Shown piece after piece: positions 1,954 to 63,468 of a stretch of 64,000 nucleotides of DNA; positions within the stretch are counted from its first letter, which is position 1, and every line of letters starts with the position of its first letter. Under the pieces are notes generated by a model, which worked only from the letters and a program-made list of their open reading frames with translations, ran no database searches and was not told the DNA's origin. The stretch comes from Apiotrichum sp. Y4204. Its lineage: Eukaryota > Basidiomycota > Tremellomycetes > Trichosporonales > Trichosporonaceae. The position numbers and the translations under genes were made by a program. Location of the stretch: assembly GCA_025531455.1 (NCBI GenBank), contig JAMYHL010000001.1, forward strand, positions 682,001-746,000, read 5' to 3'.

Positions 1954-5444
<3,491 letters not shown>

Positions 5445-43703: not shown

Positions 43704-44279
43704 TCATTTGTCGACGTATTGTTCCTCGTCGTCCTCATCCTCGTATGTATCGACTTCGAGGTCGGTATCCGTATCCACGAGTTCGATCTCCTTATCCGCT
43801 TCCTTCACGAGCTCATGGTTGGCGATACACCGTCCCTTCTTTGCCGTCCACCCCTCCTCGCACTCGCGAATGACGCATCTGCCCTCTACGCACTGTACGT
43901 CGACGGCGTTTTCGATCTGGGTGCAGTCCATGCCGATCTCCTCCAGCGAGAGCACGGGAGCCTCTTGGACGCGGAGGTCGCGCGCGCTTCCGACAATCAT
44001 GTTGGTGTGGCGTCCGCTCGCCGCGCGCCCGACGATGCACCCGCCACACGACTCGAGGTCGTTCATAATGTCCACGCACAGGTGCCGCCCGAGCCACGAC
44101 CACTTGGTCGTCAGCGCGTCGCCGACGTACTCGTACACCGGGCACGCGCTCAGGCCGAAGGCGCACGGCCGCGCCGGACGGTGCAGCGCACGCGGGCACA
44201 CATGGGGCCCGTCATTGTGGGCTGTTGCGAATGGAGTGAGGAGGGTCGCCAGAACGACGGTGAGAAAGGCGAGCTGCAT
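43704..44279 (-). CDS. PriA-like secreted Cys-rich protein
   Basis: An intronless 191-residue protein. A signal peptide (MQLAFLTVVLATLLTPFATA) is followed by a cysteine-rich region like the basidiomycete PriA family (first described in Lentinula): CPVYEYVGDA, DLESCGGC, then GMDCTQIENAVDVQCVEGRCVI as GxDCTxI...VxCVxGxCVI. The last 50 residues are very acidic (ELVDTDTDLEVDTYEDEDDE), which is not typical of the family. Function of PriA proteins is unknown; they are extracellular. The start at 44279 is preferred over an in-frame ATG at 44327 because it puts the hydrophobic core at the very N terminus. Confidence 0.78.
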   Translation of the reverse strand: MQLAFLTVVLATLLTPFATAHNDGPHVCPRALHRPARPCAFGLSACPVYEYVGDALTTKWSWLGRHLCVDIMNDLESCGGCIVGRAASGRHTNMIVGSARDLRVQEAPVLSLEEIGMDCTQIENAVDVQCVEGRCVIRECEEGWTAKKGRCIANHELVKEADKEIELVDTDTDLEVDTYEDEDDEEQYVDK

Positions 44280-45301: not shown

Positions 45302-46750
45302 TCACATGCCAACCCCATCAAGGCCGGCCGCCCGCTGCCGTTCGTCGAGTTCGCGTTCACGGTCGGCCAAATGCTGGAACAAAAGATTAACCACCCATTG
45401 CCTCCTCTGGAGCGCCTCCCGCTGGGTTTCCGCCACTTTCTTGACATCGGCGAAGGCATTCTGGACGCCCAAAAGCTGTCGCTTGACTTCGCGCTCAATC
45501 GTGCGGTCAGCCATTGCCGTGATCCGGTCCCGGACGAAAACAGAAAGATACTCGACATTGGGGGTCCTCATCGGGCCGCCCCAGCGCAGCTGGTGCTCGA
45601 CGTCTGCAAGCGCCACGCGTACGTGCTGCTCGGTGCGGCGTTTGACTTGAATTTTCAGGTTGTTGCGCTCCGTGGTGAGGTGGCGCTGGACTTCCTTCAA
45701 CTCTTTCTCCCGCTGCAGAACCTTGAACTCCAGGTTGCGGACGTACTGTTCCATCTCCTGAACCTTGAGTTCCTGCTCGCGGACACGCTGTTCCTTGCGC
45801 TGAACCTCGAGCTCCCGGAGGCGCACCTGCTGCTCCCTCAGGTTGAGCTCTCCTTCGGTAGGAGGAAAGCGAAATACGTTTGAGGCAGGAGCGGAAGTTG
45901 GATTAACTATGACCTCAGGAACATCGAAGCCCTCCACCACCGGAGAAGGAGGGTCAGCAGACTCGGCGATCACTGATGGCGTAGGCAGAGGCGTCGAAAT
46001 TGGGGACAGGGACGTGTCCGCAGTGGCAACCGCGTCGAGGTTGGGGGCAGAAGTGAACGGGTTCCGAAGGGCGTGATCGCGGCTGCACTCGCGGATATCT
46101 GCCAGCGCAGCAAGAGCGGCGACACCGTTGTACGGATGAGGAACGCCAGCCAGATCCCACATGTCGTAATTCGGGGCCAAGTACGAGGTGTTCAAGACAT
46201 CACGGTAAACGCTCGGGGAAACGTCGTCGAAGGCGATGTCTTTGTCTGTTAACGCGAGGTACAGTACCAGGGCCATCGGCTGCAGGTCCCTGGCCTGCAG
46301 GTACCAGCAGTGCTCGTCCCAAACGTCACGCATGTGTTCGTAAACGACCTGGACAAACATTGCCCAGGGGCTGTTGGGGTCGTCGACAATGCCGTAACGC
46401 TGATGGGCCGGAACCATGGAGAGGGCGATGAATGCCTGCGCAATTAAAGGCGGCAGAACACACGTGATGGGGCCGCCGTCCTTGATGAGCGCGTCGGGCA
46501 GGAGCATGTCGAGAAGATCCATGGCGTCGGGGGGCGAATTGTCGATTGGCTCCGGAAGGAGCGGTTCAAGGAGAGGCACCAAGTTCCTCTCAGGCGCTGC
46601 AGGCGGAGCTGCGGGCGAAGAAAAATATTCGAGGAACGAAATGGCAATGATGGCGGTAAGGACAATAGGTACGAGCAGGGGCATGACGAGGGTGGCCAGG
46701 AAAACAAGAAGTGGCGCGAGAAGCACGAGCGTCACGACGCGCGACGACAT
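45302..46750 (-). CDS. Tandem family member 1, with N-terminal membrane segment
   Basis: A 482-residue intronless gene, the most diverged member of the array. Residues 5-42 are strongly hydrophobic (VVTLVLLAPLLVFLATLVMP and on), predicting one or two membrane helices not found in its neighbours. Residues ~99-200 fit the family domain: PPLIAQAFIAL, then HQRYGIVDDPNSPWAMFVQVV in place of TRYRxGL...PWTxLVxI, and VYRDVLNTSYLAPNYDMWDL. A long heptad coiled coil runs from about 288 to 375 (LREQQVRLRELEVQRKEQR). The end has LADRERELDERQ, matching the family's ERExEL motif. Start 46750 is chosen so that the membrane segment begins the protein; an in-frame ATG at 46987 exists. Function unknown. Confidence 0.72.
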   Translation of the reverse strand: MSSRVVTLVLLAPLLVFLATLVMPLLVPIVLTAIIAISFLEYFSSPAAPPAAPERNLVPLLEPLLPEPIDNSPPDAMDLLDMLLPDALIKDGGPITCVLPPLIAQAFIALSMVPAHQRYGIVDDPNSPWAMFVQVVYEHMRDVWDEHCWYLQARDLQPMALVLYLALTDKDIAFDDVSPSVYRDVLNTSYLAPNYDMWDLAGVPHPYNGVAALAALADIRECSRDHALRNPFTSAPNLDAVATADTSLSPISTPLPTPSVIAESADPPSPVVEGFDVPEVIVNPTSAPASNVFRFPPTEGELNLREQQVRLRELEVQRKEQRVREQELKVQEMEQYVRNLEFKVLQREKELKEVQRHLTTERNNLKIQVKRRTEQHVRVALADVEHQLRWGGPMRTPNVEYLSVFVRDRITAMADRTIEREVKRQLLGVQNAFADVKKVAETQREALQRRQWVVNLLFQHLADRERELDERQRAAGLDGVGM

Positions 46751-47710
46751 GATGAAGAAGGTGTGGATGCGCGGTGAGTGATCAGGAAATGGTGCGGAGG
46801 AGAGAATATGAAGAGGAGAGAGGTAGTGATAGCGAAGAAGAATGAAGGGAGGGATATGGAGAGAAGAGAAGAGTGAGGAGCAAACATCATGTTGGGAGAC
46901 CCACAGCGCGAATAGCATGGCCGTCGAGGACAGACACCAGCGGGCGCCCAGGATTCCATATGGCGAGGCTGCCACACACACAGACACAGCTGGAGAGGAG
47001 ACATGCTTGTGTATGTTTACTCCCTCTCCCCCTCATGTGTATGTTTGCGCGCTCTCGCCTCGTGCTGTTGCCTCGAGGTTTGCTCAGGCTGTCAAGGTAC
47101 CGCGTTGGTCGCGCGTGAGGTTCTCCAGCCCTAGTGATTGATGATTGCACCAGCTCTGATGACAATGACAGAGAATGTGATGCTGGGACCGTCTTCTACC
47201 GAACCTCTTTTTCTTGGGAACGGTGCACTACTGGCTTCATTACTGTTTTGCTGATGTTGCGCGTTCAAGAGGTAGAAGTCCGGGGTGGACCTCAATAGTG
47301 GAGGCTGACCAGCAATACGTCACAAGACTGTATATCCTGGCTGGGAGCTTTATCCAGCCGGTGGTGTTTTCTGAAGTATCTGTCACCCAACCACCGTATC
47401 TTCATTACCTTTACAAATATTCCAAGTCTCGACGGCGAAGAACCTCGGGCTTGCAATATTTGGCTTTTCCCTGTTTGGGATCTCGAACTCTCAACTGCAG
47501 CGTTTGCCTTCGACTGGGCCCATGACGCGTGGGGAGGGGACGCTCAGGAGAAAACGCTCGGATCTCCAAACAAAACAAAGAACCTGGGGGTAGCAACACG
47601 AGGGTACATACATGAGGGGACTTCTTGGTGACAGTGGGAAATTTGCTTGTCTCTCTCGCCTTTATTAAATCTCTACTTTATCTTTAAAGCGTTCTACAGC
47701 CACCCTTTTC
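46751..47710. other. Spacer between family members 1 and 2
   Basis: 960 bp. Polypurine on the + strand at about 46796-46885 (pyrimidine-rich leader of member 1). No gene supported. Confidence 0.5.
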
Positions 47711-49252
47711 TCAATCACTGTCGTTGGGGACGGTCGACTCTAGCGCCTGAACACGTTGAATCAGCTCCTTCTCCCTCTCATTCATCTTAAGGCGCTCCTT
47801 GTTCAGCTGGCGGCGTTTTTGGAGAGACTTGAGCTCGGCCTGCAGGTGCTCCTCCTCGGCTTCGAACAGCTTCCTCTCGTACTCATTGCGGAGGAACGCA
47901 TCGCGCAGATCGATTTCCGCCTCGAGCCTGCGTTTGATGACAACAACGGCGGACGCATCAATGCGCGACAGTTTTCGCCACGGGTCGTCGTCGAATTCGG
48001 CCTCGGTAGTCTCGCTCCTCGTGCGCTTAGGAGAAGGTCGATCCAGCTCGTCAGGGCCATCCAGGAATCGGTCGGAGACCGCATCGGCTTGGGCAACTTC
48101 GAAGGTGAGAGAGTCGATGTCCAGACAATTGGTTTCGGTAGCTTCAGGTGATTCTTGCGATGATGTGGGGGATTCCTCGATGACGTTTTCCTGAATGGCA
48201 CCGACATCCGGGACTGAGGACGGCGGGGTACACGACCCGTCGATTGACTGCACGTCGCTCTCTTGACTGGCATCGCTGTTGGCAGTCGCTTGAGAAGAGG
48301 GACTCGGGGAACATGACCCGTCGATCACTCCAATGTCGGTCTCTTGTACGGGATTGATGTGGGCCATTGTCTGGCGAGAGGAACACGGGTTGCATGGCTC
48401 GGCAATCTCTGAATCGTCGCACTCTTGAACGGAATCGATGTTGGCGATTGTCTGGAGAGAGGGACACGGGGTGCATAACCCCCCGATTACTGGGATGTCG
48501 CTCTTTTGGACAGAATCCATATTGACGATTGCCTGGGGAGAGGGTTCCGGGGTACATAAACCGGCGATCACTTGAACGGGGCTCTCTTGAACGGCTTCGA
48601 TGTTGGCGACTGTCTGGCCAGGGGAATAACCGCTAGCCTCAGGCGTAGCAGGGGGGATTGTTATTTGTGACGGCGAAGGAGTAGTCGTCGGCTGTGCTGG
48701 GGGAGAAGCAGTTTGTGACATGGGTGTAGTCGACTGGATGGTGCTCCGGCCAGTCTGAGGAGTAGTACAAGTGGAAGCAGGAGTCAGGGAAGACTGTGAA
48801 ACTTCCATCACTGATCGCAGATGCGTTTTCAGCCACTGTTCCGGACCCCCAGCTGGCTTCCAGGTGACACACTTTTGAGCTTGGTCGAGGTAGTCCCCCC
48901 CGGTACCCAAAATGACCCCAAAGTCTTCTCTGCTGAAAAGAGAAGACAAGTGGTCAAACTTGGACTCGGACAGGACAAACTGCCAAGCGGCGTACTCGGC
49001 CCACTCGTGTAAGTCTGCAGTGGGGACGACCAAGAACGGCGCGGCACAGCGGAACTTCTCCACGATAATCATAACGAGCGTCGTCCACGGATATCCTGGT
49101 CGGAGACCAAGAGTGTAACGAGATTCTCTGGGGCAGAGGATGAAGGAGATGACGGAGTTTTTGAGGTCGGGAGGTAATAAACGGGCCTCAGACTTGAACC
49201 CGGGAGCAACGAGATTGACCAACCGAATGATCTTGGGATCGGAAAGCGACAT
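47711..49252 (-). CDS. Tandem family member 2, with 27-residue repeats
   Basis: A 513-residue intronless protein. Residues ~8-150 are the family domain: LVNLVAPGFK, VISFILCPRESRYTLGL, GYPWTTLVMIIVEKF, EWAEYAAWQFVL. A Thr/Pro/Gln-rich linker leads to five 27-residue repeats (about 217-345) with core VQ[ES]xDxxVIxGxCTPxPS. Then come basic SPKRTRSE (possible NLS) and a coiled coil from ~430 ending NEREKELIQRVQALES. Start 49252 lines up with the starts of members 3 and 8; an ATG at 49354 is also in frame. Function unknown. Only 168 bp separate it from member 3. Confidence 0.78.
   Translation of the reverse strand: MSLSDPKIIRLVNLVAPGFKSEARLLPPDLKNSVISFILCPRESRYTLGLRPGYPWTTLVMIIVEKFRCAAPFLVVPTADLHEWAEYAAWQFVLSESKFDHLSSLFSREDFGVILGTGGDYLDQAQKCVTWKPAGGPEQWLKTHLRSVMEVSQSSLTPASTCTTPQTGRSTIQSTTPMSQTASPPAQPTTTPSPSQITIPPATPEASGYSPGQTVANIEAVQESPVQVIAGLCTPEPSPQAIVNMDSVQKSDIPVIGGLCTPCPSLQTIANIDSVQECDDSEIAEPCNPCSSRQTMAHINPVQETDIGVIDGSCSPSPSSQATANSDASQESDVQSIDGSCTPPSSVPDVGAIQENVIEESPTSSQESPEATETNCLDIDSLTFEVAQADAVSDRFLDGPDELDRPSPKRTRSETTEAEFDDDPWRKLSRIDASAVVVIKRRLEAEIDLRDAFLRNEYERKLFEAEEEHLQAELKSLQKRRQLNKERLKMNEREKELIQRVQALESTVPNDSD
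48220..48604 (-). repeat. 81-bp coding minisatellite, about five units
   Basis: Five consecutive 27-residue units in member 2, for example NIEAVQESPVQVIAGLCTPE and NMDSVQKSDIPVIGGLCTPC. Each unit has one or two Cys and an acidic VQxxD core. Units differ at many positions but keep exact length, so the array is in frame and diverging. Confidence 0.88.
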
Positions 49253-49420
49253 TGTTGAGATGATCCACGTTGTCTTGCGGCGGTCAGTCGTCTGGAACAA
49301 TCGATAATAGGACGAAAGAAAAGAAGGGATGAGAGAAGGCAGCGAAGACTCCATAATGGAGGGTAAATGGTTGGTGGTGATAAGTGGAGAAGGAATGCAC
49401 CTTCCTTGGCCCTTGCCACC

Positions 49421-50470
49421 TCAATCTTCACGCGCTTCACGCTGCACCTCCATCCTTGGCCCCTCTAGATCACGTATTATCTCTTCCAGGTCCTCTCTCT
49501 CCTGCTGGTTTTTCGTTATCCGCTCTGTGATATCTCGAAGCATGAAATTCAAGTGTCGGCTCTCGACGCGGAGGGCTACCCTCCTCCGCAAGGCTTCCTC
49601 ATGGCGGTCGTCCTGCCTCCGATTTTGCTCGGTATTGACAACGATCGGATTGTTACGGGGTGGGTTGGCGGACTCGGTTTCGGCCTCCGAGGAGTCACTT
49701 TCCCGTTTTCTTTTCCTCTCCGGAGGGGGAGACGAGGAGGGTCGCGCAGGCTGAGTTGATGGCCCCGCCTCCTGGTTTTGACTTATGACCGAAGCAGACG
49801 TGCCCGCCTGACGCTGGCTATCGGGCTCTTGTGTAGTCGAGGTTGATGGTTGCGAAACCGGCTCAGGGGCTGATCCAGCAGCAGAAGGACCCGGAGCGGC
49901 CGGGGGTGGGATCGGCAACGTTCCAGAATTTTCCACAGCTTGCGGGACACGCGGGGGGATAAAAGCTGATGGGGGCAAGGCCGGCGCTGTTTTCAACGAA
50001 TCCAGGATGCTCCAAAGGCGTGCTTTGTTCCGGTGCTGCTCGATACTCCAAGCCTTCAAACCCCACTCGGCGAAGTTGGGTGTAAGGTCTTGAGTGGCTT
50101 CGGCTCCGACAATCTCGTTGTAGACCGGTCGATTCCAGGAGGGCTGGGGCAGATCCGGGGAGAGCGGGGGCCGACCACATACGGCAAGCACGAGCTCGCA
50201 GGAGGCTCGCTCACCCCACTTTTCAAGTTCCTTCGTCGAATATTGTCCGCGATATCGCAATCTTGCATTGGTGAAGAGTTGGATAACAATTTTGACAAGC
50301 GCAGTCCATGGATACCCGTCCTCCAGGCAACGGCGATAGCGTGTGTGCTTGCTACACCAGAGAAACGAGACGATCGCCTCGCCTAAAGGCGTAGGTAGCC
50401 GCTTCGTGGCCCTGAAGTCGCCGGCTACGACGTTGAGAAAGTGCTGATAATCATCTTGCGGAGACGACAT
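49421..50470 (-). CDS. Tandem family member 3
   Basis: A 349-residue intronless protein. Family domain at 9-150: FLNVVAGDFR, AIVSFLWCSKHTRYRRCL, DGYPWTALVKIVIQLF, LVLAVCGRPP, and YNEIVGAEATQDLTPNFAEWG. The middle is Pro/Ser/Gln-rich (PPPAAPGPSAAGSAPEPVSQ). It holds PPERKRKRESDSSEAE, a possible NLS. The C-terminal coiled coil is more degenerate than in other members (NQQEREDLEEIIRDLEGP). Function unknown. Confidence 0.77.
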   Translation of the reverse strand: MSSPQDDYQHFLNVVAGDFRATKRLPTPLGEAIVSFLWCSKHTRYRRCLEDGYPWTALVKIVIQLFTNARLRYRGQYSTKELEKWGERASCELVLAVCGRPPLSPDLPQPSWNRPVYNEIVGAEATQDLTPNFAEWGLKAWSIEQHRNKARLWSILDSLKTAPALPPSAFIPPRVPQAVENSGTLPIPPPAAPGPSAAGSAPEPVSQPSTSTTQEPDSQRQAGTSASVISQNQEAGPSTQPARPSSSPPPERKRKRESDSSEAETESANPPRNNPIVVNTEQNRRQDDRHEEALRRRVALRVESRHLNFMLRDITERITKNQQEREDLEEIIRDLEGPRMEVQREARED

Positions 50471-51343
50471 TTTATAGGGACTATCAGGGAGTGGAAGCCT
50501 CCGATGAAGGGTAGAGTGCAGAGTGAGTGGGTGATGAAGAAAAGGTTAATGGGGAGAGATCGCTTTTAGAGGAGATCGTGGTGGAGGCACCAGGGTGAGG
50601 GTGGAGGGTCACCATAAGGTTTTTGCATCTGACAGGTTTGATCTGATCTCGGCGGACCTCAAGCATGAACGTTATGGAATCTTCAACCAAGGGAACCTCC
50701 CGCTGCGACCCAGCTTTGGTGTCGGGTGCGATTTGTGCGATTTCCAAGATTTATCTGATACTTTTGGTTGTTTGCTCAACAGGGTGCTGCTGTGTCCTGT
50801 GGGGTGCGTTTTTTGACAGGTCTGAAAAGTGATCGGCTCGGCGGGTTGCAAGACTGTACTGACCTGGTGACTGCAACGCGAGCGACTGGGCAGTACTCCT
50901 CGATACCCTGTGCACCTCTGACTGCACCTAACATCTACGCAAGTGGTGCAAGTGATTTATGGCCTCCGTGACTGTGATTTCTTTGTGCACGTGAGGGCGA
51001 AAACACCAATGTGGCAGATTTGGAGTCAAATGTGGCACTCATCTTTCACAGCTTTCACAATGCAGGGTGGGCTTGCGGCATCTGCTGCAGCATTGAGGAC
51101 ATGACTACGCCCATCATCAATTGCAGTGAACTTCAACATCTGTCTAACACGCATGGCTGTCACATCTTCCAACGACTATGTACAAAGGATCTGGGTTTCT
51201 CTTGCGGCCATCTTGGCTACGTACTGTATCTGGTGACTACGGACTCATACTCATTAGCTATGTCATTACTTTGCGTCGTATAGGAGTAACGTTTGCCTAT
51301 CCGACGAAACATACGCTGGGGTTGTGTGCAGGTGGCTCGAATC
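50471..51343. other. Spacer between family members 3 and 4
   Basis: 873 bp without supported gene. No trace of a degenerate extra copy was recognised, although the size would allow one. Confidence 0.45.
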
Positions 51344-52363
51344 TTAGGCGCGGGCGACGACAACACTAGAATCTTCTTGACGCTTACTCCTCCTCGCCCG
51401 CGAGTTCGGACTCCAAGCCTTGATGCGATCCCTGAGCTCCTTCTCCTTCTCGAGATGCATGGTGCGCTGCTCGACGATCTTGACTTCGGCGGCCAGGAGC
51501 AGCTGCTTGGTTTCAAGGTGGTTTTTCTCAGCGTCGAGAAGCTTCTTTTCGTACGTGTGGTGTAAGAGCTCCGCAGAGTCGACGCGGCGAAGCTTGGATA
51601 GAGGGGTGTCCTCCTCGTCGCGGTTGGTATCCACATGTTTACGCTTCTTGCCATTCTTAGACGACTCGAGTTGGCGGTCTTTAGCTTCCATGGGTGCGGA
51701 AATCATGGTGGTGAGGCTACGATCGGTCCGGTTCGATGGTTGATTTTTGCCAAGCTCAGAACCTTGAGAGCCGGGGAAAGGGGATGTGGAACTGGAGAGG
51801 GTCGGCGAGCGTGGAGGGGCCGAAAGAACGGTAGAGGCAGAAGTGCCAGGGGGAGACACCTTGTCGTTAAGGGACGATGGATGGTCTCCAGTCCGTTCCG
51901 AGTTCTCCAGGAGCTGCCAATAGTATTCCAGGCAAACCTTGGGGTCCCAACTCGTATTCCAGTATTTGGGGTAGAGCTTGGGAACAAGGCGACGCATTGT
52001 TTGGTCAATGTTAAGATTCTCGATTTCTTTGAACGTTTCGAAAGGACGTGTGAGGGGAGGGAGCTCACAGACTGCCCGAATCAGGGTGCACATGGCCCAC
52101 ATGACAGCAATATTGAAGTCGTCGAAGAAGGGTGACCCAACAGGCTGATGACAATGATGCTCGAAGAGTTTCACCACAACGACCCGCAGAATAGACACTG
52201 GAGAGTCCCACTCCCACGGGAGAGCACGAAATCGAGTGTCCTTGGGACAAAGACAGAAGGCAATGACGGCGGTGTGGAGACCGAATGGGATTTTGTTGTC
52301 CTTCTCGAAATCGGGTGCCACGGCACGAAGCACAGTCTTGTGGTCGCTGAATGGGTTGTCCAT
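51344..52363 (-). CDS. Tandem family member 4
   Basis: A 339-residue intronless protein. Family domain at 8-150 begins VLRAVAPDFEKDNKIP and AVIAFCLCPKDTRFRAL; the signature itself is partly lost (PWEWDSPVSILRVVVVKLF instead of PWTxLV). AVCELPPL and LVPKLYPKYWNTSW keep the family spacing. A basic stretch KNGKKRKHVD and LSKLRRVDSAE (shared with member 2, LSRIDAS) precede the coiled coil, which ends EKEKELRDRIKAW. Function unknown; basic stretch suggests the nucleus. Confidence 0.76.
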   Translation of the reverse strand: MDNPFSDHKTVLRAVAPDFEKDNKIPFGLHTAVIAFCLCPKDTRFRALPWEWDSPVSILRVVVVKLFEHHCHQPVGSPFFDDFNIAVMWAMCTLIRAVCELPPLTRPFETFKEIENLNIDQTMRRLVPKLYPKYWNTSWDPKVCLEYYWQLLENSERTGDHPSSLNDKVSPPGTSASTVLSAPPRSPTLSSSTSPFPGSQGSELGKNQPSNRTDRSLTTMISAPMEAKDRQLESSKNGKKRKHVDTNRDEEDTPLSKLRRVDSAELLHHTYEKKLLDAEKNHLETKQLLLAAEVKIVEQRTMHLEKEKELRDRIKAWSPNSRARRSKRQEDSSVVVARA

Positions 52364-52724
52364 TCTTGAAGTGTTGACAGATGAGAAATCGAGAGAGACG
52401 ATGGAAGAGAAGAGGAGATGAAGAGAAGAAGAGAAGGCAAAATGATCAATTCTGCACTGAGGCTGTGTGTGTGTATGTTTGATGAGTAGACTGGACAGCT
52501 GGACGAGTGAGTAGCGGGCTCACCGCACTTCTCATGCTGCTCAGAAGCCTCCACCGCTCATGGGCCTCCTAGTTCTCATGCGATCATGCAGCGTGCGCCG
52601 TGCAAGGTACATGTACAGTATGCATAGGCTGCAGGGCGCTGCATAGGGTGCGCTACATGTCGCTATATATGCTCGTGCTTTGTATGAGCTGCTTTTGGCG
52701 CTACAAATGTATTGCAAGCTACAA
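52364..52724. other. Spacer between family members 4 and 5
   Basis: 361 bp. Purine-rich on the + strand at 52380-52440 (leader of member 4). A GTGCGC/TGCAT-rich stretch lies near 52570-52650. No gene. Confidence 0.5.
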
Positions 52725-54020
52725 TCACTGCTTCCGCAGTCTCGCTTCCAGCTCCTTGATGCGATCGGTGAGCTCCCTCTCCCTCTCGCGGAGTTTCATG
52801 CGCAGCTCGGCCTTGTCAAACTCGGACTGTAGGCGCTGCTGTTCGGCCAGAGTAATCTTCTTCCTCGCTTCGACGAGTTTAGCCTCAAATTCACGGTGAA
52901 TGTCGGTCGCGTCAAGGGGGGGTTTCTTGGTTTGATGGCTGTCGGAATTGCGGGGTTTGAGGACTTTGTACTTTGAGGGCTGCCATGAAGACTCTGGACC
53001 CACAAGCGGGCCCACAGGCGGACGGCTGCCCTTAAACGCGAATGGGTCTGAAACTCCGTTGCGCGGAGCTGGGGACGGGGAAGGGGGACTCGCACTTCGT
53101 CTGGCTTGGGCGGGGGCGACGGGGGGAACTTCCGGGAGCTCTGGGATGATGTCGGTTTGGAGCTGCCACCCCGTGAAGAGTCGAGGTGTAACGACAAAAC
53201 CAGTCGGGTCGCTGGAAAGACGCGATAAAACGACAGACGGCGAGCTCCATGGGTCGGTCGCAAACGACAAGAAAAGGAGCAACGCGTATTCAGGATGAAG
53301 AGTCGTCGGGGCGCGGGGAGGCTGATAGTACACGACAAGCTCTTCATCGGCTGAGGCCCCGACGATTTCATCAAAGCGCCAGCTCTGAGGGACCAAGAGA
53401 GGCCGGCCGCATACTGCAAAGACGAAGGCGCACGCGACATGCTCCATCCTTTGCCAGTGTGTTTCCCAGGCAGGAGGGGCAGGGGGCGGATCAGGAGGGG
53501 AACTCTGGCGCGACTTCTCTGCGTCCAGGAAGACGTGCCAGATAATCAGCACCAGTTTGGTCCATGGGCGACTGTAGGGAAGGCCGACGCGATAGCGAGT
53601 TTCCTTGGGACACTGGAGAAAGTAGAAGACGGCCTTGTGCACGATGAGAGGGAACTCGTTGTGTTTCTCGAATCTCGGAGCGAGGGCACAGAGGATCTCC
53701 CACCACTCGCTGTAGATGGGCTCGTGGTTCTTGGGCAATGTAAGAGGATTTCGGGTGACGGTGACGGCTGTTTGTTTGGAGGCGCTTTTACTGTCGTCTG
53801 GCTGAGGTGGTTTGTGTGAAGCTTGTGTACGGATCGCCCCGTCCTTCAAGGAGTGGGTTAACGAGCCGCTCAAGGAGTCATTCGAGTAGCCGTCAGAGTA
53901 GTTGGCTGAATTGTCGTTCGAGAAGTCGGCCGAGCAGTCGTCCGAGTAATCATTTGAGGAGTCATTCGAGTCGTTCGAGCAGTTGATCGAGGTGTCGTTT
54001 AAAGGTCTTTCGAGGAGCAT
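52725..54020 (-). CDS. Tandem family member 5, with Asn/Asp/Ser-rich N terminus
   Basis: A 431-residue intronless protein. Residues 8-52 are a low-complexity run of Asn, Asp, Ser and Tyr (INCSNDSNDSSNDYSDDCSA and on). The family domain follows at ~105-260: WWEILCALAPRFEKHNEFP, VFYFLQCPKETRYRVGL, RPWTKLVLIIWHVF, AFVFAVCGRPLL, RFDEIVGASADEEL. A Pro-rich linker precedes a coiled coil ending LRERERELTDRIKELEARL, the best form of the family's C-terminal motif. Function unknown. Confidence 0.78.
   Translation of the reverse strand: MLLERPLNDTSINCSNDSNDSSNDYSDDCSADFSNDNSANYSDGYSNDSLSGSLTHSLKDGAIRTQASHKPPQPDDSKSASKQTAVTVTRNPLTLPKNHEPIYSEWWEILCALAPRFEKHNEFPLIVHKAVFYFLQCPKETRYRVGLPYSRPWTKLVLIIWHVFLDAEKSRQSSPPDPPPAPPAWETHWQRMEHVACAFVFAVCGRPLLVPQSWRFDEIVGASADEELVVYYQPPRAPTTLHPEYALLLFLSFATDPWSSPSVVLSRLSSDPTGFVVTPRLFTGWQLQTDIIPELPEVPPVAPAQARRSASPPSPSPAPRNGVSDPFAFKGSRPPVGPLVGPESSWQPSKYKVLKPRNSDSHQTKKPPLDATDIHREFEAKLVEARKKITLAEQQRLQSEFDKAELRMKLRERERELTDRIKELEARLRKQ
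53855..53998 (-). repeat. Degenerate trinucleotide-like array coding Asn/Asp/Ser
   Basis: Repeated TCGTTCGAG / TCGGAGTAG-type units on the + strand encode the low-complexity N terminus of family member 5. Likely slippage-prone. Confidence 0.65.
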
Positions 54021-54398
54021 TTTGAGGTGTCTACAGTACAGAGTCGAGGAAGGCGTTTGGAGATACTGTACAGTAAAGCAAGTGGTGGGGAAAGAAAGGA
54101 GATTATAAGGCGGTAGGTAGAAGAAGAAAAGTCGGAAGATCAGAAGAGAGAATGGAACAAGTCAACAAACAGCCAGAAACCAGAGTGTGTTTGTTTGTGT
54201 CGCCCATCCATCAGGCCATCAGGCCATCAGCCGTCAGCACCGAGTTCTTCCAAATTGATTTTTCTTGTTGTGTCCCCGTACGTGTAAATCTGAATTCTCG
54301 CGCGCAGTGATATTGCATGCAGGGTCTCTCCAGGCTACAAGTATGTTGTACCAATGTGTGCAACAAGAACCGTATCGTCCGCTCCCATCAGCTACAAA
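54021..54398. other. Spacer between family members 5 and 6
   Basis: 378 bp. Purine-rich + strand at 54082-54155 (leader of member 5); GGCCATCA is repeated near 54213-54230. No gene. Confidence 0.5.
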
Positions 54399-55151
54399 CT
54401 ACGCCGTGCCACCTTCGCCCTGCAACCTGTTCTCCAACTCGTGGATTCGGTCCATGAGCTCCTTCTCGCGCTTTTCCTTTACAAGTTGCTCGACGCTCTC
54501 CAGCTCAGAGCGAAGACGCTGCTGCTTCGCCTCGAGGGTTTCGTTCTCGCGGCGGGATTCCATACGTGGCTGCTTGCGGCGACGGTTGTCTGAGTTGTCG
54601 TCGTCTCGTTCGCGCTTGACCCTAGCGGACGCGGTAGAAGCTGCCTCTCGTGACGCGGTGGGAGGAGCTTGAAGGTTTCCCGGAGCCGCCGACGACGACC
54701 GGGAAGTGTCGGGCTTGACGAGCCAGAGATACTTCTGCAGCCACGTCGTAGCGGTGCTGGGACTGGTGGCGTCCATATTCCACGGCTGGTTCCTGGGCAC
54801 GAGCTCGATGGCCGCCGAGTCGCCGAGAATCTTGCCGAAGCGCATCCTGTCCAAACGTGAGGGCGGGCGGTCGCACACGGAAAGAACGAAGGCAAAAGTG
54901 GCGTACTCGGCGCACTCGTGCAGCACGTCGGTGGGAATTGGCTTGTGCTGGTATGCGAGATAGTGCTCGGCGACGATCATGACGAGAGTCGTCCACGGGG
55001 TATCCGCTGGAAGGCCGGGTTGGTATCGGGTGTCCTTTGGACACTGAAGGAAGAAGACGATCGCCTTGGACAGCGCCGGGGGAATAATCTTGTCTTTCTC
55101 AAACTGGGGAGCGACGGCCTTGACCACCTTCCACCACGTTCTCTTGAGCAT
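54399..55151 (-). CDS. Tandem family member 6 (shortest copy)
   Basis: A 250-residue intronless protein showing the family at its most compact. Domain at 5-150: WWKVVKAVAPQFEKDKIIP, ALSKAIVFFLQCPKDTRY, GLPADTPWTTLVMIVAEHY, ECAEYATFAFVLSVCDRPPS, RFGKILGDSAAIELVP. A short Ser/Ala linker contains VKRERDDD and NRRRKQPR (possible bipartite NLS). The coiled coil ends EKREKELMDRIHELENRL. Start 55151 matches members 5 and 7 in spacing; an ATG at 55232 is in frame but would add an unlike leader. Function unknown. Confidence 0.78.
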   Translation of the reverse strand: MLKRTWWKVVKAVAPQFEKDKIIPPALSKAIVFFLQCPKDTRYQPGLPADTPWTTLVMIVAEHYLAYQHKPIPTDVLHECAEYATFAFVLSVCDRPPSRLDRMRFGKILGDSAAIELVPRNQPWNMDATSPSTATTWLQKYLWLVKPDTSRSSSAAPGNLQAPPTASREAASTASARVKRERDDDNSDNRRRKQPRMESRRENETLEAKQQRLRSELESVEQLVKEKREKELMDRIHELENRLQGEGGTA

Positions 55152-55628
55152 TGTCGCGGTTATTGTGTTGTTGCGATGGACGGAGGAGTGGGGATGAGGT
55201 AGGAATGAGAGACGAGAAATTACGGCAAACAAATGACAATAACGCGAGAACTAGAAAACCAGAAAGAGCCGGTGTGCGCGTATGTGTGTCTCGAGGAAGT
55301 CAGAGAAGAGCGAAATTAAGGAGAGGAAAGTAAAAGAGTGTCGGTGACAGAAGTCGAAATGGAAGGGTGGAAAACGAGGTTGAATGAGAGTTTGGACGAG
55401 ACTGAGAGAAGCTGTCTGCTGTATATACAGTACTCATGCACCTGCCTCGTCGGACAACGTCCTGGTAGGGTGGCAAATTGAATGGAGCTGGTAGTCGCGG
55501 AGTCGTAAAGTAACTTGAAGTGATCTGACAGGAATGGTTTGGACGCGCCTAACTTATTTTGGCTGCTTAGTGTGTTCCAGAGAGACACTAGCCAGCTTCT
55601 TTTGATCGCTTGGGTCCTGATCGACAAA
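55152..55628. other. Spacer between family members 6 and 7
   Basis: 477 bp, leader of member 6 and 3' region of member 7. No gene. Confidence 0.5.
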
Positions 55629-56576
55629 TCATCCATCGAGGTCAGAACGCCGGCTCTTAAGCATGCGCACCGTCTCCTCCAGCTCAGCTTTGTGCTCCAA
55701 CCACGCCCTCTCGCGCTCGTTCATCTCCTTGGCGTGGCGCACGGCCTCCAGCTCCGTCTGGAGGTGCTTCTCGCGAGCGGCGAGGAGTTCCCTATCGTGC
55801 TTGTTCTGCATTTTTGCTTTGAGGTCCTCCATCTCAGAAGTAATGGATGGGAGGATCGAGCGGGACGGAGGGGACTGGGAGGCAATACGGCGACGTTTGT
55901 GCCGATGGTTGTCGTGTGTATCAACGCTGGGAGCTACACTGTGCATCGAGCTGGGAGGGGAAAGCGAGTCCTCTCCTTGGAGGTCTTGCCGGCTGGGAGA
56001 CTCCTCCCTCTCAGGAGCGAGAGAGGCTCCGAAAACGCCGTTCGCGCGTTTCCGGACGATCACCGGAGCATTGTCGGGGTAGGCGCACGCGCCCGCTGGT
56101 GTATCCTTTGTGAGGTCCGCGAGGATATCCTCCAGCGTGCCAGGTCCGCAGGGCATCGGACGCAGGCCCCACTTGGCGTACTGTGGCACGAGGGGCGCGA
56201 GGGGCGGAGTGCTGGGCGTAGCCGGTTTGCGAGGGCCGAGGACGTGCTGGAGGGTACGCGGGTCGCATTCCAGCAGCGGGGGGATGGGATTGCCGCAGAT
56301 GCGGAGAAGGAGGGTGAAAGCCGCGCGTTCTGCGCGGATGTCGAGGAGGAAGCCGAGGGGCGGCCCGCCCCCTTGGCGGTAGAGCTCTTTCAGGATGCGG
56401 ATCAGCGTCGTCCACTGCGTATCCCTCGGAAGGCCCGGACGGTAGCGCGTCGCGGGATCACTCTGGAGGAAGGCGACGAGGGCCTTGCCTAGGATGTATG
56501 GGATGGAGTTTGAGTCCGGCGCGATTGTGGTGATGAAGGAGCCGGCTGAAAGGGCGGATGAAGATGGTGGTGGCAT
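55629..56576 (-). CDS. Tandem family member 7
   Basis: A 315-residue intronless protein, closest to member 8. Domain at 11-170: SFITTIAPDSNSIPYILGKA, LVAFLQSDPATRYRPGL, RDTQWTTLIRILKELY, AERAAFTLLLRICGNPIPP, LVPQYAKWGLRP, TLEDILADLTKD. A basic segment NHRHKRRRIASQ lies in the linker. The coiled coil shares REKHLQTELEAVRHAKEMNE and RERAW with member 8 (RAKQLQSELEGVRRAQEMNA). Start 56576 aligns with member 8; an ATG at 56681 is in frame. Function unknown. Confidence 0.78.
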   Translation of the reverse strand: MPPPSSSALSAGSFITTIAPDSNSIPYILGKALVAFLQSDPATRYRPGLPRDTQWTTLIRILKELYRQGGGPPLGFLLDIRAERAAFTLLLRICGNPIPPLLECDPRTLQHVLGPRKPATPSTPPLAPLVPQYAKWGLRPMPCGPGTLEDILADLTKDTPAGACAYPDNAPVIVRKRANGVFGASLAPEREESPSRQDLQGEDSLSPPSSMHSVAPSVDTHDNHRHKRRRIASQSPPSRSILPSITSEMEDLKAKMQNKHDRELLAAREKHLQTELEAVRHAKEMNERERAWLEHKAELEETVRMLKSRRSDLDG

Positions 56577-56975
56577 GGTCTGCCTGGGCGGGTAGGTGAT
56601 TGTGAGAAGGGCGGAGAAGAGGAAGGAGTGACAATGTGGGAAGACAGCTAAACGAGCGAGTGTCAGGCAAGCGGAGAACACATGGGGTAAGAAATGGACA
56701 CACTGATGGAGTGAGACAGCAGCAGACAGTGACGGAGTGAGAGGGCAACGAGTGATGAGTGATGAGACGAGACGTGTGAAGAAGTTATGTTTTGATGATG
56801 ATTGACGACTGTCGGGCGATCGCCGCGCGGTGCAGTTGCCTGATATACCAGATACCCGTCACGTCAGTCGCAAGCGAATCACTCATGATCACTCAATACC
56901 TAGAACGTCGCGCACGAGATACATCCATTCTTGATTGTACTTATGAGATCAGTGTACATCGCACCTGGCTCGGGG
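56577..56975. other. Spacer between family members 7 and 8
   Basis: 399 bp; GAGTGA-rich leader of member 7 near 56700-56770. No gene. Confidence 0.5.
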
Positions 56976-57902
56976 TCACTCGGCGCGCGGCCGCTTCCTC
57001 AAGACCTCCACCATCTCCTCCAGCTCCGCATTCCGCTTAAGCCACGTCCTCTCGCGCGCATTCATCTCCTGGGCGCGGCGCACGCCCTCGAGCTCGGACT
57101 GAAGCTGTTTCGCGCGGACGGCAAGGAGCGCGGCGTCGTGGGAGTTCTGCTCGCGCGCGATCGTGCGTTCGGCCTCGTATGAGCGAGATGGTCTACCGGC
57201 GCTCGCGGGCTGTCTGTCGGGATCGGGAACGACTGGGTTGTACGCGCTGGGCGGCTGGATGCGTTCCTGACTGCCATGGGAATCTCCCGACCGCATCACA
57301 TTTGTGTCCGTGGGGCGATACGGCGGGGGCGCAGGGGCACCAGGGGGCGTAGCCGGGGCTGGGGCTTTGGAGCGAGGGCTGGCGGGCTCGGACTTGGGCT
57401 CGGGCTCGGGTTCGACGCCGTCTTCACGCTCAAAAGGTACCCAGCCAGGGACGTCCTCCGCGAGGTCTAGCAGAATCCGCTCGAGCGTTTTCTGGGTGTA
57501 GGCCGCGGGGCGGAGGCCCCAAGTCTCGTACTGCGGGCGGAGGTTACGCGCCGCCCCGCCGCCAATGACGCGTTCGTACGTTTCCGCATCGTACGTCGCC
57601 TGCGGGGGCGGGTGCCCGCAGACGACGAGTACGAGTGTGAATGCCGCTGCTTGGGCGCGGCGCGCGAGGCGGGGGATATCTGGCGGCGGGGGGGAAGTGA
57701 GGGCGTAGAGGTGCTCGATGATGCGGACCAGGGCGGTCCATGGTGTTCCCGGGCGGAGACCGGGGCGATAGCGCGACGAGGGGTCGCATGCCAGGAAGGA
57801 GAGGAGGGACTTGGCGAGAATGTAGGGCAGCTGGTTTGATTCCCAGGCTGGGGCGATAACTGCGAGGAAGGTTGGGAGGGTGAGCAGGGGGTCGTCTGAC
57901 AT
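56976..57902 (-). CDS. Tandem family member 8
   Basis: A 308-residue intronless protein. Domain at 10-165: TFLAVIAPAWESNQLPYILA, SLLSFLACDPSSRYRPGL, PGTPWTALVRIIEHLY, QAAAFTLVLVVCGHPPP, NLRPQYETWGLRP, TLERILLDLAEDVPG. The linker is rich in Pro/Glu/Lys (EPEPEPKSEPASPRSKAPAP). The coiled coil (ALLAVRAKQLQSELEGVRR) ends with NAELEEMVEVLRKRPRAE. Members 7 and 8 appear to be the youngest duplication. Function unknown. Confidence 0.78.
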   Translation of the reverse strand: MSDDPLLTLPTFLAVIAPAWESNQLPYILAKSLLSFLACDPSSRYRPGLRPGTPWTALVRIIEHLYALTSPPPPDIPRLARRAQAAAFTLVLVVCGHPPPQATYDAETYERVIGGGAARNLRPQYETWGLRPAAYTQKTLERILLDLAEDVPGWVPFEREDGVEPEPEPKSEPASPRSKAPAPATPPGAPAPPPYRPTDTNVMRSGDSHGSQERIQPPSAYNPVVPDPDRQPASAGRPSRSYEAERTIAREQNSHDAALLAVRAKQLQSELEGVRRAQEMNARERTWLKRNAELEEMVEVLRKRPRAE

Positions 57903-58422: not shown

Positions 58423-61400
58423 CTACTCGTCCACGCGGCGGTCGATCGCCTCCTCGACCCCGCGCACAATGTCGTCCTCGGGCACGCGCACGACCGTGCC
58501 GTCCGGCATTGTGCGTTCAAGCATGCCGTCTGCGTCGACGCGCGTGTTTGCGCTCACACCGGGGCCGAGAGGGTGCTGCTCCGAGGTGGCTTCTACAAGC
58601 ACGTCGTCGCGTTCCTCCTCGGGAGAGAGGACATGCTCCGGTGTTGAGAGCGCCGTGGATGCCGAAGACGCCGAGGGTGCCCGGATGTTCAGACCCGCCG
58701 TGTCGCGCGTGACGTTCTCGAGGTTGGGAGCGGCTGGCGGCAGGTCTTCGCCTTGGTCGTCTGACTCATCGCCAGGGAACGACCAGGAGGATGTCGGCGT
58801 GTTGACGACATCGACCTCTGTCTCGGGCGCATCGTCGTCGGGCACAACGATCGCAGGGACCTCGTCCGTCTCCGCGTCCTCATTCCAGGGTTGCTGCGGC
58901 CCAGAGTCAAATTCCCGCTCAAATGCCTCTGCCCAGTCCCGCGGCGTCAACGGCTCGGCAGACCGAAAGGAGTCTACGCTGCTCGAAGACGGGGCGAATG
59001 CGTCGTCGCCAAAGGGGTTCTCGGGATTGCTTTCGTTGTTGACAGATGTAAACGATCCCCACGCGTCGTCGTCGTCGAAATCGACCTTGTTCGAGGACTG
59101 GAATGTCTAAAGTCAGCGCTGGAATACAAACGCTAAACCCACCCCGAAATCATCCTCGTCGCCGTCCTTTGCCCGCCCAGCACTAGGACGCAGCCAGTCG
59201 GCATCATCGTCGTCGTCATCCGACGAGTCCGTACCCGCCCCGCGCGTGGTGCGCGGCCGCCAGAACTGCTCCATCTGGTGGTCATCATCCTCCGTCGCGT
59301 CGCCGTACGCATCAGCCTGCTTGGCGGTCGTGCGGCTGAGGGGCTCGCCAATGATCGGGCCATGGTGGTCGTCGTCGTCGCTTCCAGAGTCGCTCCGCTC
59401 GCTGTGCGACTCCATGCCGCCACCAAGTCCGGAATGCGGCTTGCCGCCGGCGAGAGGCTGGGTATCGCGGGCGCGTGTTTCCCGGAGCGAGCCATCCACG
59501 AACGCCTCCCACTGCGCCTGAGGGTATGAGTCGCGGATCAGGTCCATGAGATCCGGGGGACAACGGGCAAAGAACTTGACTAGCTCCTCGGCAATCAGAC
59601 TGATGTGGCCCATGTACGAGAGACGCGGCTTGCCAGCGGCGACCACCTCGTCGTTGCGCTTCTGCGCCTCAAGCACGCGGTACACCAGGCGGGCCTTTGA
59701 GAAGAGCTCAATTATCAGCTCGCGGTTGTATCCCTTCCCAAGCTGGCCGTTGAGAATCTGCTGAAGAATGTCGTACACGAGGTGGTGGAGGAAGTTGTTG
59801 TTCTCGTACTCAAAGAAGAGATCGAGCAGCGTCGGAAGCACACTGAACTTGATGAACTGCGACTTTAGGTTCTCGCCGGTAGACAGCTCCTCTTCAGCAC
59901 CAGGGGTCTTTGTTTCCGGCTCCTTCTCCATCACGTCCCGCAACCGCTCCGCATTCTCAGGCGATGGCGGAGGCGGGTCCTCCTGAACAACTGGAGTCTT
60001 TGGCGAGGACTGTAATGTCTTTGGCGGGGATGGTGTGTCGTCATCATCTGAGAGCGGAACATCATCGCTCTCGGTGAGCGAGTAGTCGGTGCTGCCAGAG
60101 GATACTGGCAGCTCGCGCGCAGGTGTGACCTGGTCCTCTGGGGTGTCCTCCACCTGCTCCTCTTCTGAGTTCTCGCTCGCCTGGAGCGCCTGTCCCAGTC
60201 GGTCCAGGCCGTCGAGACCACCAGTGAGCGCTCCAGTGTCGTCGTACAGTGGACCAGTACCCGGAACGCGGTTCAAGGTGGACATGTTCGACGAGTGCAG
60301 AAGCTCGGCATAGAGCTCGATCACACGGAAGCGCTCCATGGTGAGAGGCTTTTTGGTGAGCGCGCTCTTCACCCTCTCCTGGCTGCGGGGGGATGCGAGA
60401 AGCTTGTGCAGCTCGCCGAACCGGTCGGCGATCGCGCCGACGAGGTTTCCAAGATGCACAATAGCGAGCTTCTCCGCAAGCTCGGGAAGCGCACCCTCAA
60501 GCTTCTTGCGGTGCTCCTCGCCCTCTGTGTCGGTGTCTGGATCACTCTCCTCAGGCGCAACCTCCTTTGTCATCGACTCGCTCTGGATGGCCATGAGACG
60601 GTTGCGCATCGTGTTGAAGAGATATGGCTCCGCGAGGTCCGAGTTATTCCTCCGGATCACCTCGACGATGACGTTGCACACATAGCATAAGGAGCTGGTG
60701 GTCGACGCAATCGAGGGGAGCGGGTGGACAACAAAAGGATCGGCCGGGTGGGGGTCGCCGGCGGCGAGGCCCTTCCAGTCCTTGTCGGTCAGGTCCGCGA
60801 CGCTAGTCATGTAGCCGAGGAGGGTGTTGATGCTCTCGCGCGACGTCAGCTCGCGCACCAGACGGTTGTCCTTGTGTCCAGGGCCGTTGGAACCCGTCTG
60901 GTCGACAATGTTGCCGCCGTGCGGGTTGAAGCTCGAGTTGGGGGCGGAGACAGAGATGATGCCCTTGAGGAGGTCGGCGATGATGGCGTGCATGCTGGGC
61001 GGGTATTGCGGGGAAAGGTGGTGAAGGAGTTTGGGGATGAGATGCTGCTCTCCGAGCCAGTTCATGACATCTGGCACCGAGTCCTCGGCCTGGATGATCC
61101 TGGCGAGCATGTCCTGGATTGCGGGCGACTCAATCTGCGCCATCATGCGCTCGACAATATTCGGAAGCGACTGGATAAACCGAATCATCTAGTGGTTAGA
61201 GCGGTCAGTCCGCAATGTACGCACCTCTGTCGTCCTCCGCAAGAGAAAGCTGCCATTGACGCGCATCCACATTCCGCGAATCACCTCCCGCTGCCGCTCA
61301 CGCTCCTCGTCCTCCTCTGTCCAGAACAGGAGCTTCGCCCGTTCCCGTTCGCTACGCTCTTCCGCGCTGCGCGGCTTGTGTTCGAGGGGCGGAACAACCG

Positions 61401-62247
61401 CATCCCAGAACGGGCGGAGAAGCGATTCTTTGTGGTTCATGACAGTCTCGGGAATCGTCCACAGCTCGGACGTGAGGATCTCGGCCGCGACCTGGGGATA
61501 CCTGAGCGTTAAATGAGGCGGGTAGGTTTCAACGCACCGAGACCGGTTGCCCTCCGACGACGACCCTTGATCCGGGCCCGTCAGCCCCTCGCCGAGGCCG
61601 ATCCCGAGCATGGTCGGGAGGTTGGAGTTCCCCTCGTCGACGTCCATCTTATCTGCTGCGTTGTCGCCGTCCGTTGCACCCAGTTTCCGGAACGGCGGGT
61701 TGATGTCTGTGCTCTCCAGTGCCTTCTTGTACGCCTCGTTCTCGGCCCTTGCCGCCGCGGCATCGAGTTCGTCGAGGCCGCTGGTCACCCATCCGAGCAG
61801 CGACTTGACGTTGTCGTCGCGCGACAGATATGTGACGAGTCTGGCGTGTCAGCGGCAACATGGCCGTCGGAGGGAGTGCGGGCATGAGGAAGGGAAGGAA
61901 GTGCAGTGGTGTGAGAGAGCGAATCGCCGAACTGATGATGAAGCAGACGCGTGCCGCCATGCCCTGTCCGGACATGCGACGTCCCAGTTCCACACACACA
62001 CGCCCTTGTCAAGTCGTCCCACCCGTCCCCGGCCTCGAACTGGTGTTCCAAGCAGGTGCGCCCCGGATCACGCTTACGCTCACGCGCCTGCGCCCGTCCT
62101 CCTCTCGCGTACGCACTTTGTATTCTGCGCCTTGCACTCTGCGAGAATGTCCTGTTCGTCGAGCAGCTCCTCGACGCTGGGCGGGGTCTCGCGCGAGAGC
62201 AGCGTGTCGAGCGTCGAGCCCGACGCGAAACTAAACTTCCACAACAT
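58423..62247 (-). CDS. SAPS-domain phosphatase regulatory protein (Sit4/PP6-associated)
   Basis: A 1,146-residue homologue of yeast Sap185/Sap190 and animal PPP6R, which bind and direct the Sit4/PP6 phosphatase in cell-cycle and nutrient signalling. Exons in coding order are 62247-62117, 61840-61538, 61501-61225, 61188-59143 and 59106-58423. The N terminus (MLWKFSFASGSTLDTLL) and LVTYLSRDDNVKSLLGWVTS are typical. The helical SAPS domain continues through SIPNIVERM-like repeats (LPNIVERMMAQIESP) and TMERFRVIELYAELLHSSNM, then LPTLLDLFFEYENNNFLHHLVY. The second half is acidic and disordered with NPFGDDAF near the end. Intron 1 is 276 nt with a GCTGAC branch site; the others are 36 nt. Confidence 0.92.
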
Positions 62248-63468
62248 GGTGGAATATGTCTAGCGGATGTTGTGGAGGGGAGCTCGGGGGTGATAGATCG
62301 CTGTGCGCGAGATGCCGCACCAGGTTCGCGCAACGGAAGCTCGGAGGCTCGGAGAGTGAGGTTCGGCGCGTTTCGAGGCTGGGTGGCTCGCTTGCTCGCT
62401 TTTTTTGCGCCCAATGCGCGTGTTCGGCTCCGAGGACGGGGTGCGGGGTCTGCGCGCCGGCGTCTGAGGAGTGCCGCTTGGTGGTGAGGGTGGGTGTTGG
62501 ATGTGGTGTGGTGTGGTGTGGATGGAGTGGATGGAGTGTATCAATCAATGCAATGTAAGCGGAGCCCACAAGAACGAGCGGATGGTTTGTGTTGGCTGGC
62601 ACAGGCAGGAGGAGGAGGGAAAAGGAAGGTTGGCTGGTGGTGAAAAAAGCAGGGACACACACACACCGGATGTGGAGGGGCAGAGCGCCAGAGCCCAGCC
62701 TCTCCTCCGTCCCCCCCCCCCCCCCAGCCAACCCCACCACCACTGTGATCCTGTAGTGACGCAAACGCACACGACCTCCCCCACCCGACTCGATGATGAT
62801 GATGATCAATGCATGCATGCATCACGACGCAACGCATGCACGCCTGTAGCACTGCAGTTCACCACCGTCGTACCGTCGGTGCACAGGCTGTTCAGAGATA
62901 TGCCGTCCATGTCTGCTGAGCTACTACTGATCTACTGATTTAGGGCCCAAGGACAGGATACACGCACGCGAGTTGTGTGAGATGGCAATCTCCACTCCCC
63001 CCAGATCCTTACTCAATTACTCGCAGATCCCAAGCGTATGCATCCCGGTCTCTCGGGGTGGCTGATACATGCTACATGCTACACTTTCGTTGCTTCGACC
63101 GGTCCGTTGCCGGGAGCCTCTTTTCGCTCTCTTTCTCTGCGTTTCCCTCCATCTCTCTCTTCTCTATCTACTCCCCCTCTAGCTCCATCTGGCCATCAGG
63201 ATGGGGCCAAACCCAAAACCCGTCAAAGTGGCACCCAGATCCCATGTCTTGGTGGGTTCACATCATGTTCCCACATTCACATCCTATAATCTAAACACCG
63301 TGGCTGTCCTCTTCTCTCCTGAACTCGTGATGTCGGCGCGTTCACGGTGGCGCCCTGTGCGCCGTGATACAGAATCCTGCAATCCAGCAAGATCAATAGC
63401 TAGATCAAGATCAAGATCGATATCAAGATCAAACAGATACATACAAAAGCCAACTACAACACCCCCTC
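62248..63468. other. Intergenic region SAPS / thioesterase, simple-repeat rich
   Basis: 1.2 kb with no supported gene. Contains (GTGTG)n at about 62502-62521, a 15-base C run, (GAT)n with TGCATGCATGCA at about 62791-62822, and GATCAA repeats at about 63386-63434. Some of these are likely leader sequence of the SAPS gene. Confidence 0.55.
62711..62725. repeat. Poly-C tract
   Basis: Fifteen consecutive C bases; length may be misread by sequencing. Confidence 0.9.

Follow-up and report, generated by a model that had tools for sequence, protein, structure and literature searches.

A tandem gene family present in two probable subgenomes

The genome of Apiotrichum sp. Y4204 (assembly GCA_025531455.1, 48.9 Mb in 182 contigs) carries a run of eight genes that are read from the same strand and that belong to one family. 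The run was found in a stretch of 64,000 nucleotides, positions 682001-746000 of the contig designated C1 here, and this whole stretch is referred to as the window; C5, C13, C51, C132 and C155 designate other contigs of the same assembly. In the list of open reading frames (ORFs), the eight co-oriented genes lie on the minus strand between window positions 45302 and 57902 and are numbered as members 1 to 8 from the lower coordinate upwards (Table 1). A 24-kb stretch comprising the cluster and its flanks has a collinear partner on C5 that is 90.2% identical, and all eight members are open there too in unchanged order, which gives 16 open frames. Because all eight frames are open and equally ordered on the homeologous contig, and because none of them has a ratio of nonsynonymous to synonymous divergence (dN/dS) as high as 1, the uninterrupted frames are taken to be coding. 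The tandem array of eight uninterrupted genes proposed in a first-pass annotation of the window is thus real. The start common to the window and C5 copies lies at 46750 in member 1 and at 49252 in member 2; the longer ORF starts of these two members (46918 and 49354) are not common to both copies. The direct repeats that parts of the cluster have in common are pieces of coding sequence only.

The second copy of the cluster reflects a general feature of the assembly, in which many protein-kinase matches also occur as near-identical pairs on two contigs. Because the 90.2% identical partner and the paired kinase matches fit two parental subgenomes, the genome looks like that of a hybrid. Two contig pairs, C1/C5 and C132/C155, were compared at the DNA level and are about 5-10% apart. 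Hybrid Trichosporonales are the topic of PMC6642101 and are mentioned in PMC6730849. Searches of the genome used each of the eight window members as a query, and also member 4 as it stands on C5; they found full genes of the family solely in the two clusters. Apart from fragments of member 1 described below, the remaining matches had expectation values (E) of at least 0.04 (for member 8, matches at E ≤ 0.001 were listed). Each of these searches compared one sequence with the top-ranking candidates, and a very diverged member elsewhere could escape them.

One family with a predicted helical N-terminal domain

The relationship among the members was established by sequence comparison at two levels. 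BLASTP, with E-values calculated for a set of eight sequences, connected all 21 pairs that members 2 to 8 can form; the best value for a pair lay between 2.8e-55 (members 7 and 8) and 1.7e-5 (members 4 and 7). The weakest match of the N-terminal domain by itself, between members 2 and 7, had an E of 6e-4 and was accompanied by a C-terminal match of 1e-7; separate C-terminal matches also joined members 5 and 6 (8e-8) and members 2 and 5 (7e-7). Member 1 gave weak pairwise matches (2.4e-5 with member 2, 1.4e-4 with member 6 and 0.002-1.4 with the others, including 0.8-1.4 with members 4, 5 and 7). When both copies of the member-1 domain were combined into a profile and compared by hhalign with a profile of the fourteen domains from members 2 to 8, the two were collinear over 122 columns (E 1.7e-5, probability 78.5), and the positions of the proline and of the RY, PW and L.P.Y..W motifs coincided. 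Because BLASTP joins members 2 to 8 and the profile comparison joins member 1, the N-terminal domains are, on the evidence of these alignments, of common ancestry and the family has eight members. The domain that had been aligned by eye in members 2 to 8 is in this way borne out and extended to member 1. The TRYR/PWT signature, which had been placed at residues 43-60 in almost every copy, does lie at about residues 40-60 in members 2, 3, 4, 6, 7 and 8; in members 5 and 1 it is shifted by about 100 and about 75 additional preceding residues, respectively, and it is incomplete in member 4, which is without the PWT part and whose C5 copy is without the TRYR part as well.

The domain comprises about 140 residues and is predicted to be all-helical in both modelled members. 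AlphaFold2 models built from an eight-row alignment had a mean predicted local distance difference test score (pLDDT) of 87.1 and a predicted template modelling score (pTM) of 0.86 for the domain of member 6, and a pLDDT of 87.7 and a pTM of 0.85 for residues 1-152 of member 8, and the order of helices is alike in the two models. In every member the domain is followed by a variable linker and by a charged C-terminal part with a long stretch (34-90 residues) free of proline and glycine. These C-termini probably form a coiled coil, a call made from the proline- and glycine-free charged composition and heptad-like periodicity. A crude pattern search found basic clusters resembling nuclear localisation signals in six of the eight members (all except 1 and 5; in member 8 inside the C-terminal region only). 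The N-terminus of member 1 is strongly hydrophobic, with a mean hydropathy of 2.78 across 19 residues.

Selection and divergence between homeologs

The presence of both clusters in one genome made it possible to compare each member with its homeolog. The Nei-Gojobori dN/dS between the window and C5 copies ranged from 0.15 to 0.67 (Table 1), and the bootstrap 95% intervals were below 1 in all eight members, the highest upper limit being 0.92 (member 4). The same ratio was 0.02 in the neighbouring SAPS-domain gene and 0.13 and 0.12 in the longest frames at two kinase-hit loci. With every member below 1 yet above these values, the genes are under purifying selection, loosely. Positive selection acting across whole genes is ruled out by the same ratios.

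The claim that the family diverges fast stood in part. Homeologous proteins are 68-93% identical in the cluster versus 99.4% in the SAPS neighbour, and against conserved neighbours faster divergence is firm. It does not extend to the 15 control ORF pairs (median dN/dS 0.131, maximum 1.12), than which the cluster is not significantly faster (p=0.095). These controls were chosen mechanically from homeologous stretches, unfiltered and with none dropped before counting, and several are probably non-genes (e.g. window 61571-62260 and 62234-62821, and the member-1 fragment on C132), which makes the comparison weak.

Within the genes, with borders between domain, linker and C-terminus set by the analyst, dN/dS was higher in the linker than in the domain in seven of the eight members, the exception being member 4, which is fast throughout. 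The domain of member 6 had a value of 0.06, and the C-termini of members 5 to 8 were slow as well (0.10-0.20). Member 4 (window 51344-52363 versus C5:18408-19425) is the most diverged between subgenomes, and its C-terminal tail is read in different frames in the two copies. Unusual divergence is confined to this member and to the domain of member 1.

Table 1. Members of the family and their regions (window coordinates)
Feature	Position	Strand	Basis and remarks
Member 8, 308 aa	56976..57902	-	ORF; homeolog C5:24066-24995, 90% identity; dN/dS 0.37
N-domain, member 8, predicted helical	57408..57902	-	alignment A4; AlphaFold2
Charged C-terminal region, member 8, conserved with member 7	56991..57209	-	
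Member 7, 315 aa	55629..56576	-	ORF; nearest relative member 8 (39%); dN/dS 0.28
N-domain, member 7	56082..56576	-	alignment A4
Charged C-terminal stretch without P/G, member 7, probable coiled coil	55635..55847	-	
Member 6, 250 aa	54399..55151	-	ORF; dN/dS 0.15, lowest among the eight
N-domain, member 6, predicted helical	54702..55151	-	alignment A4; AlphaFold2
Charged C-terminal stretch without P/G, member 6, probable coiled coil	54420..54566	-	
Member 5, 431 aa, S/N/D-rich N-terminal extension ahead of domain	52725..54020	-	ORF; dN/dS 0.28
N-domain, member 5	53235..53723	-	alignment A4
Charged C-terminal stretch without P/G, member 5, probable coiled coil	52728..52916	-	
Member 4, 339 aa	51344..52363	-	ORF; 68% identity between subgenomes; dN 0.21, dS 0.32, dN/dS 0.67
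N-domain, member 4, motif partly lost	51890..52363	-	alignment A4
Charged C-terminal stretch without P/G, member 4, probable coiled coil	51410..51601	-	
Member 3, 349 aa	49421..50470	-	ORF; dN/dS 0.43
N-domain, member 3	49979..50470	-	alignment A4
Charged C-terminal stretch without P/G, member 3, probable coiled coil	49463..49645	-	
Member 2, 513 aa from C5-common start	47711..49252	-	ORF; dN/dS 0.61
N-domain, member 2	48803..49252	-	alignment A4
Charged C-terminal stretch without P/G, member 2, probable coiled coil	47729..47980	-	
Member 1, 482 aa from C5-common start	45302..46750	-	hydrophobic N-terminus, then divergent domain copy; dN/dS 0.30
N-domain, member 1	46058..46531	-	alignment A4; most also present as degenerate fragment on C132/C155; high homeolog divergence
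Charged stretch without P/G, member 1, probable coiled coil	45581..45850	-	

The member-1 domain and its dispersed fragments

In member 1, synonymous divergence (dS) was 0.58 in residues 86-235 and reached 1.0 in windows of 40 codons, versus 0.05 before and 0.16-0.24 after this segment. The peak is located at window 46058-46531 and at positions 7083-7556 of the C5 stretch L019. Shuffling of the synonymous changes gave p=0.0004 for a peak of 100 codons, whereas the other eight of the nine genes tested gave p-values of 0.18-0.97. The same segment is found elsewhere in the genome. C132 (198855-199353) and C155 (191250-191643) each carry a copy of the member-1 domain, at positions 3865-4349 and 4260-4671 of the extracted stretches L047 and L048; these copies are 65-83% identical to it in more than one frame. 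They span nucleotides 263-701 of the member-1 frame, the segment in which the synonymous peak falls, and their flanks are similar to each other and unrelated to member 1. Judged by these alignments, the copy is a broken fragment that predates the subgenome split, unless it was copied twice. A short tandem repeat is seen in the C132 fragment but not in that of C155, the two contigs look homeologous, and a long opposite-strand ORF near the fragment resembles, by eye, a fusion of spermidine synthase and saccharopine dehydrogenase.

Of the 424 sites without gaps in the four copies, 19 join the two member-1 copies as expected, and 10 and 4 back the two other groupings; private sites number 33 in the C5 copy of member 1 versus 18 in the window copy. 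Ectopic conversion would explain the anomaly, and so would the retention of old variants; the data do not separate the two.

Searches for known families

The first-pass annotation knew no family with this pattern, and this held within the resources searched. Pfam returned only sub-threshold matches for the eight members, the strongest being SPX (E 0.0046) and CDC14 (E 0.0074), both in the C-terminal half of member 6, and NCBIfam returned nothing above threshold. The best match among PDB sequences had an E of 0.31 and fell in the C-terminal part. Comparison of the predicted domains with PDB folds gave best E-values of 1.5 and 0.73, and comparison of the member-6 domain with viral folds gave no match at E ≤ 0.001 (best 0.28). 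In about 5.8 billion proteins, none of the 7993 top word-sharing candidates scored with a seven-member alignment reached E ≤ 0.01, and none of 85 candidates for the member-6 domain reached E ≤ 0.1; this search requires exact five-residue words in common and similar length, and distant relatives may escape it. As a control, the SAPS neighbour was searched in the same database and found 85 proteins at E ≤ 1e-10, the best 71% identical, including three from Cutaneotrichosporon (67-69%), one from Vanrija humicola (66%) and relatives in Cryptococcus. Because this control found related genera but no very close relative, the absence of the family means that it was not detected there. Term searches of the open-licence literature found no description of such a family and none of a JBP1-like domain in fungi. 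The genes form a family that is undescribed within these resources and apparently lineage-restricted, an orphan family of a familiar general kind. Lineage-restricted tandem families in fungi typically consist of old tandem copies that have diverged and have no detectable relatives beyond the lineage. The present family differs from them in that the full set is found in both subgenomes and has a confidently predicted helical domain.

Possible functions of the family

The explanation that we favour, tentatively and with rather less than even confidence, is that an old tandem duplication produced a lineage-restricted family that selection has maintained and whose products act as adaptors and not as enzymes. 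The N-terminal domain would serve to bind proteins, with a surface that differs from member to member and so gives the set different specificities. The C-termini would dimerise as coiled coils, in some cases perhaps between unlike members, so that the proteins would pair their bound partners. The basic clusters would direct several members into the nucleus, and member 1 would be anchored in the membrane. In favour of this explanation are the shared domain and the separate C-terminal matches, the two confident helical models, dN/dS intervals below 1 in every gene, linkers that change faster than the domain in seven members, slow C-termini in members 5 to 8, the net charge of the domain, the basic clusters and the hydrophobic start of member 1. 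The common descent of the genes, the constraint on them, the class of their predicted fold and their confinement to the two clusters are documented above; from these we infer dimerisation, binding and location. Several observations weigh against this explanation. Heterodimers between members are a guess, and the coiled coil is judged by composition and periodicity alone. The C-termini of members 1 to 4 have dN/dS values of 0.38, 0.42, 0.87 and 0.53, respectively, and are therefore not everywhere below the linker, and the hydrophobic start of member 1 has a value of 1.18, from few changes. Further, a weak match to the JBP1 DNA-binding domain recurs and points, if anywhere, to DNA.

This last match is the starting point of a rather unlikely alternative, in which the members are a divergent set of DNA-binding regulators whose N-terminal domain contacts DNA as the JBP1 domain does and whose C-terminus dimerises. 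The JBP1 domain (PDB 2xse / 8bbm) is a helical domain of similar size and heads the Z ranking for each of the two predicted domains; the match is weak, and the models of members 6 and 8 align over 105-107 of about 150 residues. Pfam includes a model of the JBP1 DNA-binding domain, and this family is not among the Pfam-A matches at E ≤ 1 of the eight members. A genome search for a Tet_JBP gene gave no match, but the controls were equally silent. The net charge of the domain, from -10 to +5 across members, does not suggest generic nucleic-acid binding, and it tells little about any local basic patch, a point that also limits what it can say for protein-binding adaptors. Several members resemble dimeric regulators of the bZIP type in that a basic cluster precedes a charged C-terminus that is probably coiled; unlike these regulators, none of the eight members has a bZIP match in Pfam at E ≤ 1.

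A locus of conflict or self-recognition (allorecognition, spore killing or resistance to genetic parasites), in which variable N-terminal domains act as recognition surfaces and trade sequence by ectopic conversion with a silent copy elsewhere in the genome, seems equally improbable. It would account for the synonymous peak of member 1, for its coincidence with the segment duplicated on C132 and C155, for the conflicting groupings backed by 10 and 4 sites and for the divergence of member 4. On the other side, the expected grouping of the member-1 copies still leads with 19 sites, the peak occurs in one of nine genes tested, no member reaches a whole-gene dN/dS of 1, and the fragments are broken and may simply be a dead duplicate. 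Moreover, the two versions of the cluster live together in one genome, and Pfam at E ≤ 1 found no HET, NACHT/NB-ARC, NLR or other known allorecognition or related domain in the eight members. The most specific version, a new fungal recognition locus with an undescribed helical domain as its variable part, in which this domain of member 1 would be exchanged as a cassette with the dispersed silent copy to leave old, deeply diverged domain variants in an otherwise ordinary gene of the two parental genomes, is much less probable still.

That the members are neutral or decaying duplicates, by-products of tandem duplication whose redundant copies drift, is quite unlikely. The dN/dS of members 2 and 4, the different C-terminal frames of the two member-4 copies and the degenerate member-1 fragments would fit it, but all 16 frames are open, the intervals exclude a dN/dS of 1 in every member, and the member-6 domain has a value of 0.06. 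Remains of mobile elements or viral genes, which the uninterrupted frames and the lack of detected cellular relatives might suggest, are highly improbable given that the single-sequence searches of the genome found full genes in the two clusters only, that comparison of the member-6 domain with viral folds yielded nothing at E ≤ 0.001 and that the locus is collinear with its flanks in both subgenomes.

Genomic neighbourhood

The cluster is flanked by the SAPS-domain gene (59113-61188) and by a CPL1-like gene (43704-44279; Pfam E 3.4e-15), whose frame has a dN/dS of 0.43. Farther left, ORFs with a sub-threshold ADP-ribosylglycohydrolase match and with AA14 lytic polysaccharide monooxygenase (window 34423-35226; Pfam E 1.3e-70), ABC transporter, and PHD and MYST zinc-finger matches were found. 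Past the SAPS gene, an ORF at C5:35241-35861 (stretch L021) has a response-regulator receiver domain and is, by eye, like Skn7. A role in mating, which had been put forward as one of several options, is not supported: STE3 matches occur only on C13 and C51, away from the cluster on C1 and C5. Basidiomycete mating-type loci (HD and P/R), treated for Trichosporonales in PMC6730849, likewise form a cluster of divergent genes. They differ from the present one in their homeodomain, receptor and pheromone families, none of which was found by Pfam in the cluster, in the gene on either side of it or in 20 further ORFs of the window; this was the extent of the homeodomain scan, and exons split by introns may escape it.

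Significance

The helical domain is predicted with confidence, yet neither Pfam nor the solved structures offer a convincing counterpart. Its eight tandem copies in both halves of the hybrid-like genome make the cluster a clean test bed for the origin and roles of lineage-restricted gene families, and the homeologous pairs let constraint be measured inside one genome. If the domain of member 1 has indeed been exchanged with the dispersed copy, the locus would give a concrete starting point for tracing a recognition system of these yeasts.

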